Below are positions 5,082 to 8,920 of a stretch of DNA of 35,286 bases, piece by piece. A model generated the notes under the pieces. The model was not told where the DNA came from. It saw only the letters and a list, made by a program, of their open reading frames with translations, and ran no database searches. The position numbers and the translations under genes are program-made. This stretch comes from Azoarcus sp. (GTDB lineage: Bacteria > Pseudomonadota > Gammaproteobacteria > Burkholderiales > Rhodocyclaceae): positions 1 to 35,286 of the forward strand of contig JAIRXQ010000034.1 of the NCBI GenBank assembly GCA_031268195.1, read 5' to 3'. Position 1 is the first letter of the stretch; each line of letters opens with the position of its first letter.

Positions 5082-5146
5082 TTCACTCCCGCTTCACGAA
5101 AACGCCGTTTCCGCTTTCCGCGCCGTTCACACGCCGCGCCTACGAT
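5082..5146 (+). promoter_or_regulatory. Tandem cre tags and promoter upstream of the VIT-vWA gene
   Basis: TTCAC at 5082-5086, six bases, TTCAC at 5093-5097 is a perfect cre tag. The second box is TTTCC (5115-5119), six bases, TTCAC (5126-5130), again 33 bp on. TACGAT at 5141-5146 lies 10 bp after it. The stretch between the two TTCAC clusters matches the copy at 1526-1553 at 20 of 28 positions with no gap. Transcription would start near 5153, giving a leader of only about 18 nt before the ATG at 5171. Confidence 0.8.
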
Positions 5147-5170
5147 GGTTTTGCCTTTTCACAGGAGACC

Positions 5171-7445: not shown

Positions 7446-8357
7446 ATGAACGCTATCGGCAGGTTTGCGCACCGGCTCGACCGCTGCCCGTCAGTGGTCT
7501 GGCTGGTCCTGTTCGGCATGGCCATGTGGCCGCATGGCCTGTGGATGGCGCGGCGCATGCTCGACGGTTCGGATGACCCGCTCGGCATCGTGGCGCTCGC
7601 GGCGCTTGCCTTCGTCGGCTGGCGGCACCGCGGGCACCTGCGGCGCGCGCCGCGGCCAACATGGTTTTGCGGCGCGCTCGCGCTCATGGCGCTGGCGGGC
7701 GCGGCCTGGAATACGCTGCCGCCGCTTTTTGCAACCCTTTTGGCGCTGCTCGGCTTCGCGGCGGGAATGTTGTCCCTGCTCCCCGGCGGCGCTGCCTGCG
7801 CCTCTGCCCCCGCCTCCGCCCCTGTACTCGGGCTGGCGGCGCTCTCGCTGCCGCTCATGGCATCCCTGCAATTTTATGCGGGCTACCCGCTGCGCCTCGT
7901 GGCGGCGGAACTCTCCCGCTGGTTGCTCCTCCCCGTCCACCATGTCGAACGCGATGGCATCGCGCTGTGGGTGGATGGACAACTGATACTCGTCGATGCC
8001 GCCTGCTCCGGCGTGCAACTCGTCTGGCTCGGCTATTTCACCGCCTGCGCCACGGCCCTGCTGAGCGGTTGCCACAACGCTCGCTTTCTCCGCCGCCTGC
8101 CCGTCGTCGGCGCTCTGGTGCTCGCCGGCAACGTCTTGCGCAACGCCGCGCTGGTCGCGCTGCAAGCCGACGGCCAGGCTGCCGCCGCATGGCTGCACGA
8201 AGGCATTGGACTCGTCACGCTCGCCGCGGTCTGCGCGCTCGTCTTTCGCCTGATGGTCGTCCGCGCCGCCGAGGCCGCACCCACACCCACATCTACACCC
8301 ATACCCATACCCATACCCATACCCATACCCACATCCACACGGGAGGCACTGGCATGA
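7446..8357 (+). CDS. Exosortase family cysteine transpeptidase-like membrane protein
   Basis: A 303-residue polytopic membrane protein with about seven to eight hydrophobic helices. The three exosortase catalytic residues are visible: Cys187 in LILVDAACSGVQ, Arg232 in GNVLRNAALV and His251 in WLHEGIGL. Exosortases process PEP-CTERM tails during export. This one immediately follows a protein with such a tail and is not surrounded by exopolysaccharide genes, so it is probably a dedicated single-substrate enzyme; I cannot assign the subfamily securely. The C-terminus ends in a Thr-Pro-Ile-Pro tract from a hexanucleotide repeat. A TTG at 7440 could also start the frame, but GGAG at 7432-7435 is better placed for the ATG at 7446. 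It overlaps the next gene by 4 bp. Confidence 0.85.
   Translation: MNAIGRFAHRLDRCPSVVWLVLFGMAMWPHGLWMARRMLDGSDDPLGIVALAALAFVGWRHRGHLRRAPRPTWFCGALALMALAGAAWNTLPPLFATLLALLGFAAGMLSLLPGGAACASAPASAPVLGLAALSLPLMASLQFYAGYPLRLVAAELSRWLLLPVHHVERDGIALWVDGQLILVDAACSGVQLVWLGYFTACATALLSGCHNARFLRRLPVVGALVLAGNVLRNAALVALQADGQAAAAWLHEGIGLVTLAAVCALVFRLMVVRAAEAAPTPTSTPIPIPIPIPIPTSTREALA
8297..8326 (+). repeat. Hexanucleotide microsatellite (ACCCAT x5) in the exosortase 3' end
   Basis: Five perfect copies of ACCCAT run from 8297 to 8326, with related imperfect copies on both sides (8278-8340). They encode a Pro-Ile run within TPTSTPIPIPIP just before the stop. Because the unit is six bases, slippage would change tail length by two residues without shifting the frame. 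Confidence 0.9.
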
Positions 8358-8920
8358 CCCTGCACGCGCGAATCCGGCTCCTCAAGCTGCTGGCGGTTTT
8401 GCTCCTGCCCGCCTGCGCGGTTTGTAACGCCATTGGCCTTTTTGACCTCCGTCATGAAACCGTCGCCGCGCCGTCGGCGGACACCGCCGTGGAATGGCCC
8501 GCCACATGGCAGGGCCGCATGCTGCGCCCGTTGGCCCTGACGGATGTCGAACAACGCTTCGCGCAGGGCTTTCCTGGCCGGATCGCCCGCCTGACCGACG
8601 ACCGGAACATGCTTGTCTGGCGACACGTCGCGCGCCCCACACGGATGCTCCATCCCGCGGTGGACTGCTACCGTGCGATGGGCTGGCGCGTCCTGGACGA
8701 GCGGCTCGAACAGGCGAAAGACGGCACGGGTGAACGCTGGCGCTGTTTTGTCGCCGAGCGCAGCCGCGAAGGTGTGCGTCTGCGCGTCTGCGAACGCATC
8801 GAAGACAGCGGCGGACAGGGCTTCACCGATGTGTCCGCCTGGTACTGGGCCGCCATCACCGGCCAGTCCGCCGGGCCGTGGCGGGCACTGACGGTGGCAA
8901 GCCCGCTGGCAGCCGATTAG
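8354..8920 (+). CDS. EpsI-like exosortase-associated protein
   Basis: A 188-residue protein with an N-terminal membrane anchor/signal (about 8-28, KLLAVLLLPACAVCNAIGLF) and a periplasmic domain. LHPAVDCYRAMGWRV resembles the conserved Cys-containing segment of EpsI-type (exosortase-associated) proteins, which reads roughly HxPxxCYxGxGW. The ATG overlaps the exosortase stop as ATGA and has GGGAGG 7 bp upstream, so the two are translationally coupled. Function in the family is unclear, but it is commonly found fused or adjacent to exosortases, which fits its position here. The assignment is by motif and context only. Confidence 0.65.
   Translation: MTLHARIRLLKLLAVLLLPACAVCNAIGLFDLRHETVAAPSADTAVEWPATWQGRMLRPLALTDVEQRFAQGFPGRIARLTDDRNMLVWRHVARPTRMLHPAVDCYRAMGWRVLDERLEQAKDGTGERWRCFVAERSREGVRLRVCERIEDSGGQGFTDVSAWYWAAITGQSAGPWRALTVASPLAAD

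Follow-up and report, generated by a model that had tools for sequence, protein, structure and literature searches.

A probable one-enzyme, one-substrate exosortase operon under predicted CreBC control in Azoarcus sp.

Genes for a VIT-vWA protein, exosortase Q and a partner

Contig JAIRXQ010000034.1 of Azoarcus sp. assembly GCA_031268195.1 (35,286 nt, analysed over its full length and called the window below; home genome 2.53 Mb, 95% complete) carries three consecutive genes at 5171-8920, encoding a VIT-vWA protein that ends in a sorting tail, the exosortase XrtQ and a partner protein, and the first of them is preceded by an exact copy of the published CreB site. We consider it probable that this operon is a one-enzyme, one-substrate exosortase system under the control of the two-component system CreBC. 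Its features are as follows.

5082..5097, + strand: predicted CreB box of the VIT-xrtQ operon, cre/blr tag TTCACTCCCGCTTCAC, exact match
5171..7339, + strand: VIT-vWA protein, 722 aa, with Pfam VIT and VWA domains
7226..7336, + strand: C-terminal sorting tail of the VIT-vWA protein (VPGSPEP, uncharged stretch, Arg-rich end)
7446..8357, + strand: exosortase Q (XrtQ), by NF012182, PF09721 and invariant residues
8004-8006, 8139-8141 and 8196-8198, + strand: XrtQ codons for Cys187, Arg232 and His251
8354..8920, + strand: partner gene, placed where EpsI would stand and homologous to exosortase T (C-terminal part)

The VIT-vWA protein matches Pfam VIT with 121.5 bits and VWA_3 with 65.3 bits and begins with a stretch that looks like a signal peptide by eye. 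D358, S360, S362, T428 and D455 are invariant among 14 aligned VIT-vWA proteins, and the DxSxS sequence is what we take to be the vWA metal site motif. Solved structures matched by sequence, namely PARP4 and the inter-alpha-trypsin inhibitor heavy chains, fit the domains and offer no clue to a ligand. The exosortase scores 328.9 bits with the XrtQ model NF012182 (curated cut-off 270) and 77.5 bits with PF09721 (Exosortase_EpsH; cut-off 25.7), and its Cys187, Arg232 and His251, presumably the exosortase catalytic triad, are invariant in 11 of 11 aligned XrtQ sequences. A VIT-vWA protein with a PEP-type tail followed by an exosortase is what a first-pass annotation of this DNA had described, and the domain matches, the XrtQ score and the PEP motif confirm that description. 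At the 3′ end of xrtQ (about 8280-8335) lies an in-frame CCCATA-type repeat, and the Pro-Ile run that it encodes is missing from 10 aligned relatives.

The partner gene, whose start at 8354 overlaps the exosortase stop (8357), had been called EpsI-like. We do not retain this assignment: neither Pfam nor NCBIfam gives an EpsI model match to any of its 11 aligned members, none of which matches any Pfam family at E ≤ 0.1, and the only NCBIfam matches are to exosortase T (11 of 11, that of the window protein being to the C-terminal part) and to XrtU_C (4 of 11). Eight of 78 relatives have the partner gene fused to XrtQ.

Linkage was assessed in the best 80 of 221 relatives from a scan of named genomes with the XrtQ alignment (the named loci counted throughout), which overlap in part with the same-genus contigs and whose box counts are partly redundant, many of the loci being from Variovorax. 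Their titles include Azoarcus metagenome-assembled genomes, Variovorax, Xenophilus, Ottowia, Pseudacidovorax, Rhizobacter and Saezia. A VIT-vWA gene lies 5′ of XrtQ on the same strand in 79 of the 80, the gap between its stop and the XrtQ match measuring 5 to 455 bases, and in the sole locus without one (L168) the XrtQ match begins at base 80 of the contig. The partner gene follows at no more than 400 bases from XrtQ in 78 loci; the other two contigs end at XrtQ. Such same-strand linkage rules out chance co-location, and the VIT-vWA/XrtQ pairing is confirmed as real. In 63 of 76 named loci the partner gene is followed by a homologue of a protein with a C-terminal transglycosylase domain, the domain itself having been tested in L035 (10688-11962) and L038 (10510-11784).

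The same pairing is seen in wider samples. Among 21 genomes of the genus, the window's included (VIT-vWA counted above 400 bits to TIGR03788, XrtQ when over its cut-off), 11 have both genes, one has VIT without XrtQ, none has XrtQ without VIT and nine have neither, two of these nine carrying weaker VIT matches (G547, 225.7 bits; G560, 220.9 bits). Phylum draws comprising 398 genomes contain five with XrtQ over cut-off, all of them among the 43 with a VIT-vWA match; 36 of the 43 exceed the sortase-type cut-off, and the other seven are the five XrtQ genomes, G411 and G163. VIT and XrtQ also co-diverge (r 0.92, 77 loci), a value that comes without an unlinked-gene control and is not used here as evidence.

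The PEP tail, a probable dedication of XrtQ and other sorting enzymes

The VIT-vWA protein ends VPGSPEPESLGALLVTLSMLAMIARRLSRQRRRHLTL. PEP is present in the tail of all 79 VIT-vWA relatives, most commonly with the residues VPST before it (55 of 79), and an uncharged run of 14 to 19 residues comes after it. PEP-CTERM models in NCBIfam and Pfam give no match to the window tail at E ≤ 0.01. Three VIT matches have no sorting tail by eye, namely L031 (G560), L033 (G009) and L231 (the second match of G303), all of them weaker or remoter, and two further such matches, L030 (G547) and L034, are sequences cut short.

The home genome encodes a second exosortase on contig C21 (PF09721, 226.4 bits) together with nine tails over the PF07589 cut-off, and no sortase (PF04203) was matched in it at E ≤ 0.1. 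Eight of the nine tails lie in fetched loci, and most of them are of the VPEPETYAMLLAGLGIVG type, reading like VPEPETYAMLLAGLGIVGMVARRRR, unlike the VIT tail. The ninefold set includes one protein inside the window (22300-23013, − strand), an FxDxF-type PEP-CTERM protein that scores 52.2 bits with NF038126 (cut-off 50) and is presumably a substrate of the other exosortase. Two exosortases and two tail classes in one genome would fit an XrtQ dedicated to the VIT-vWA protein. The presence of the second enzyme also weighs on the other side, as it might accept the PEP tail too, and an alternative would have it process the VIT-vWA tail, with XrtQ serving elsewhere or being redundant. We find this improbable: a PF07589 search of the genome at E ≤ 1 that found the nine other tails did not have the VIT tail among its 10 listed matches, and XrtQ is tied to VIT-vWA in 79 of 80 named loci and does not occur apart from it in the 21 genus genomes.

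A second alternative accepts the XrtQ pairing and holds that the tail is a membrane anchor only, on which the neighbouring exosortase makes no cut. A hydrophobic helix with an Arg-rich end would suffice as an anchor, and cleavage is itself predicted from sequence. Against it stand the [STA]PEP that precedes the helix in 78 of 79 relatives (in the remaining one the motif was cut off by the 48-residue limit of the stretch inspected) and the invariant catalytic residues of XrtQ. A VIT-vWA orthologue from the same family as the window (G003; 50% identical) ends in an OmpA domain without a PEP tail, and no XrtQ match was found in the 16.3 kb fetched around it or in its genome, where other exosortases were not searched for. 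Taken with these points, the anchor-only reading appears unlikely, and cleavage by XrtQ is the reading that we prefer.

Further enzymes stand beside VIT-vWA proteins elsewhere. In the one genus genome with VIT and no XrtQ (G552), the C-terminus of the protein reads VPEPEFWLLALVALLAIWPLTRRAGALS, and exosortase K (88 bits, cut-off 55) comes next; the case named in the first-pass annotation as one that would count against it, a PEP-tailed orthologue without a neighbouring exosortase, was thus not seen. The same-genus VIT-vWA gene with exosortase K in L047 (1191-4237) has upstream TTCAT half-sites with six-base spacing instead of a CreB box. In G411, exosortase T (687.6 bits, cut-off 250) lies beside a PEP-tailed VIT-vWA protein, with a CreB-like regulator (222.5 bits, cut-off 273) and a kinase matching the CreC model (154.9 bits, cut-off 356); this set of four genes is consecutive in L229 (1933-8102), where neither the regulator nor the CreC-like kinase reaches its cut-off. 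A rhombosortase (TIGR03902, 93.1 bits, cut-off 84) lies directly 3′ of the VIT-vWA gene in G163, and in G011, a member of the window's family, a rhombosortase of 117.5 bits accompanies a VIT-vWA tail that contains GGSGGGALDGW. VIT-vWA genes immediately followed by a rhombosortase over cut-off occur in L032 (703-3413) and L230 (3406-6071), an arrangement that fits the published GlyGly-CTERM tails. The enzymes newly added here as neighbours of the VIT-vWA family are thus XrtQ, XrtT, XrtK and rhombosortase, plus an OmpA-ended form of the protein.

A predicted CreB box before the VIT-vWA gene

The CreB site TTCACN6TTCAC, as described in PMC4689548 and PMC3660660, has two exact copies in the window, against 0.02 expected. 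Regulatory and boxed genes upstream of the operon are the following.

1510..1525, + strand: second cre/blr tag, 5′ of the GH3 gene, exact match
1835..3250, + strand: GH3 protein, NagZ-like (PF00933, 146.3 bits; NF003740, 139.3 bits, below cut-off 207)
270..962, − strand: response regulator CreB (NF008296, 343.9 bits, over cut-off 273)
3..233, − strand: CreC, truncated at the contig end so that the N-terminal part is left (identity to a same-genus CreC at 54 of 75 residues)

The box at 5082-5097 ends 73 bases before the VIT start, and its first base is the position at which the first-pass annotation had begun the locus, leaving the box itself unmentioned. The box at 1510-1525 lies 309 bases from the GH3 start in a stretch that agrees with the VIT promoter stretch at 50 of 66 bases, and the GH3 gene is probably a second CreB-controlled gene. 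A 39-codon open reading frame (1700-1819) stands between this box and the GH3 gene; the promoter layout is the same as at the VIT box. The 2.53 Mb genome has three exact boxes in all, of which the third (contig C36) lies inside an open reading frame on the other strand and is taken as chance.

A survey of 81 loci (the 80 named loci and the window; 1,073,008 bases) returned 84 exact boxes, 83 of them before the VIT gene and on its strand (no more than 400 bases ahead of the VIT match start and 60 bases past it) and one before the window's GH3 gene. Seven loci were left out of the per-locus count, six with short upstream sequence (one of these boxed) and one without VIT; of the 74 having at least 330 upstream bases, 70 carry an exact box, L109, L116 and L144 carry one with a single mismatch, and L122 has none. 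First-order Markov resampling gives 0.0008 expected boxes per region, and neither the reversed pattern nor the opposite strand yielded a single occurrence. When spacings of 2 to 11 bases were counted in the 330-base regions, a spacing of 6 was found in 69 regions, 11 in one and the others in none. At 80% identity the sequences form 19 clusters, of which 17 have a boxed member and 15 are boxed throughout. The gene creD, present in 24 genomes, served as a positive control, and 6 of the 10 loci fetched for it contain the exact box; no exact box was found in the OmpA, XrtK and XrtT loci.

Linkage to the regulators varies among relatives. L037 and L039 have the order creB-creC-box-VIT-exosortase-partner with CreC over cut-off, and creC ends less than 600 bases from VIT, on the same strand, in 7 of the 70 named loci whose flanks are long enough. 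Within the genus, CreB is over cut-off in 10 of 11 XrtQ genomes vs 4 of 10 others. The window genome lacks creD, but 6 of the 11 XrtQ genomes of the genus have it, which rules out the VIT-xrtQ operon as a general replacement for creD.

Several observations weigh against control by CreBC. Matches to creB or creC occur in the flanks of only 31 of the 80 named loci, a count that covers the flanks rather than whole genomes; G546 (87% complete) has XrtQ and no CreB match; L036 is without a box; and in L122, apparently the same contig as L054, the GH3 gene runs into VIT, with only a degenerate box, placed before GH3. The exosortase of L039 is below the XrtQ cut-off (199 vs 270 bits). In the window itself a distance of 4.2 kb, occupied by SixA-like, GH3 and HipA-like genes, separates creB from the VIT gene, so that the statement of the first-pass annotation that CreBC is nearby holds only loosely. 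The HipA-C-like gene and a HIRAN/HipA-N-like gene occupy 3387-5053 before the operon, the second of them below both Pfam cut-offs, and a HipA-C query found no match in the 80 named loci.

These linkage data bear on a third alternative, in which the TTCAC box is a leftover of creBC linkage and the operon is not CreB-controlled; in the 31 loci with flanking creB or creC matches the box could belong to those neighbours. The box is retained, however, where VIT and CreB lie on separate contigs (G551, G557, G558 and G561, all draft assemblies, the distance being known only in G561, at more than 26 kb), and across the survey it keeps to the strand and side of the VIT gene, the window's GH3 gene being its only other site. 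We judge a leftover box very unlikely and favour control by CreB. The first-pass annotation had proposed two-component control without reference to the box; with this evidence from the DNA the proposal is stronger than it was when made.

Proposed mechanism and comparison with known systems

From the genes and their families, the invariant catalytic residues, the tail, the linkage and the conserved box, all of which are present in the sequence, we infer the following course of events. Envelope stress would activate CreC and CreB, and CreB would bind the tandem TTCAC box at 5082-5097 and switch on all three genes of the operon. The precursor of the VIT-vWA protein would be exported via Sec and retained by its C-terminal hydrophobic helix, after which XrtQ, using Cys187, Arg232 and His251, would cut at or near SPEP and hand the protein to an acceptor, with the partner protein assisting. 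The VIT-vWA head would then stand outside the inner membrane, where it may bind a ligand through the vWA metal site. Export, cutting by Cys187 near PEP, transfer and surface display are modelled on the exosortase family. As to the signal, the link of CreBC to penicillin-binding protein loss and beta-lactamase control, as described in the literature consulted, the transglycosylase neighbour and the boxed NagZ-like GH3 gene lead us to take it as envelope or peptidoglycan stress.

We lean, somewhat less firmly than on the operon itself, towards a broader view: a VIT-vWA module with an interchangeable tail (sortase, rhombosortase, exosortases Q, T and K, OmpA domain) may have been captured by CreBC, giving a stress-switched dedicated exosortase with a single substrate that in some genomes stands directly behind creBC, where creD stands elsewhere. 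The literature searched contains no paper that we could find on XrtQ, or on CreBC together with an exosortase, and an earlier mention of the XrtQ-VIT pair is possible; the new element appears to be the predicted CreBC control of the XrtQ cassette through the CreB box. To our knowledge, few exosortases have a proven substrate and reaction, numerous though exosortases are. If the proposal is true, substrate, cleavage site and acceptor become directly testable, with three genes, one predicted substrate, an inducing pathway that is likewise predicted, and culturable hosts, the XrtQ loci including some from Variovorax, Ottowia and Xylophilus strains. It would also extend the reach of CreBC from creD and beta-lactamase control, as far as the sources describe these, to a surface-protein sorting operon.

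The closest likeness in layout, as the first-pass annotation had rightly seen, is to the dedicated sortase system (TIGR03785, TIGR03787, TIGR03788), which also has a single VIT-vWA target, its own sorting enzyme and a two-component system. Of the 36 sortase-type loci in the phylum draws, 30 were fetched. Each of them has a sortase next to its VIT gene, and neither an XrtQ match nor an exact CreB box was found in any. A strict pattern classes 20 of the 30 tails as LPXTG-like (a few of these 20 through an earlier LPAG stretch only), and variants such as YPQTA, FPQTA and MPKTA can be made out by eye among the others. Setting tails against neighbouring enzymes had been suggested as a check; in the loci covered here PEP goes with XrtQ in 79 of 80 (the 80th being without VIT, its contig beginning at XrtQ) and a sortase with the sortase-type gene in 30 of 30. 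Another suggested check, a profile search with the marine proteobacterial dedicated-sortase target model TIGR03788, turned out otherwise: the window protein scores 415.1 bits and misses the cut-off of 551.65. Nor can the regulators be called those of the same system, since CreB reaches 138.1 bits with TIGR03787 (cut-off 335.7); in the sortase system of L044 the response regulator scores 386.2 bits with this model and the kinase 531.8 bits with TIGR03785, below its cut-off of 612.2. The two systems thus differ in tail, enzyme, regulators and target score, with an LPXTG-like tail and a sortase there and a PEP tail, an exosortase and CreBC here. A fourth alternative would derive the locus from the dedicated-sortase system (TIGR03785 to TIGR03788) by a recent exchange of the enzyme, and the homologous target and the two-component system common to both might speak for it. 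We find it scarcely credible and reject it on tree and identity: a tree of 27 VIT-vWA proteins (midpoint root; very long branch for the XrtT row) separates 14 sortase-type rows from the other 13 at 100/100 support, and identity between the exosortase side and the sortase side is about 30%. The response regulator is of a different family, and none of the 30 sortase-type loci fetched has an exact CreB box.

Tail and enzyme do go together across the family, as the first-pass annotation had held in calling both swapped, though the exchange is not recent and is already known in kind. According to Haft and Varghese (2011; PMC3237569), homologues of the vault and inter-alpha-trypsin type end in GlyGly-CTERM, LPXTG or PEP-CTERM with the cognate rhombosortase, sortase or exosortase, and one-target pairs are defined there as "dedicated" systems. 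The sole PEP example given there is from Verrucomicrobium spinosum, and neither XrtQ nor CreBC is named in the sections consulted.

Two exosortase systems come near the present one. The XrtN-VIT system (TIGR04476, TIGR04477) is likewise a pair of exosortase and VIT protein named in NCBIfam, but the XrtN model gives the window exosortase 31.9 bits against a cut-off of 200, and the four XrtN-type targets scanned have Pfam VIT and no vWA at E ≤ 1e-4. XrtQ-like enzymes below cut-off in L040 to L043 go with XrtN-type VIT proteins in four of four cases, all below the TIGR04477 cut-off; in L043 (6785-12605) the XrtN-type VIT protein, XrtQ-like exosortase, partner gene, response regulator and kinase are consecutive. 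Exosortase T (NF033770) shares with the window, in G411, the PEP-tailed VIT-vWA protein, CreB-like regulator and kinase, and the partner gene is a homologue of its C-terminal part; it differs in being a fused enzyme on a long separate branch, with regulators below the CreB and CreC cut-offs, and is known here from one case.

The exosortase A/PEP-CTERM (EpsH) system shares the enzyme superfamily and a tail of PEP, helix and Arg end, and differs in serving many substrates rather than one dedicated substrate, in having tails of the kind that PF07589 recognises and misses here, and in the partner, which lacks an EpsI model match in the window. With the CreBCD/BlrAB regulon, finally, the locus has in common a CreB over cut-off and the published CreB box; the difference is that the known target creD is missing from this genome, and that the boxed genes are the VIT-xrtQ operon and the GH3 gene.

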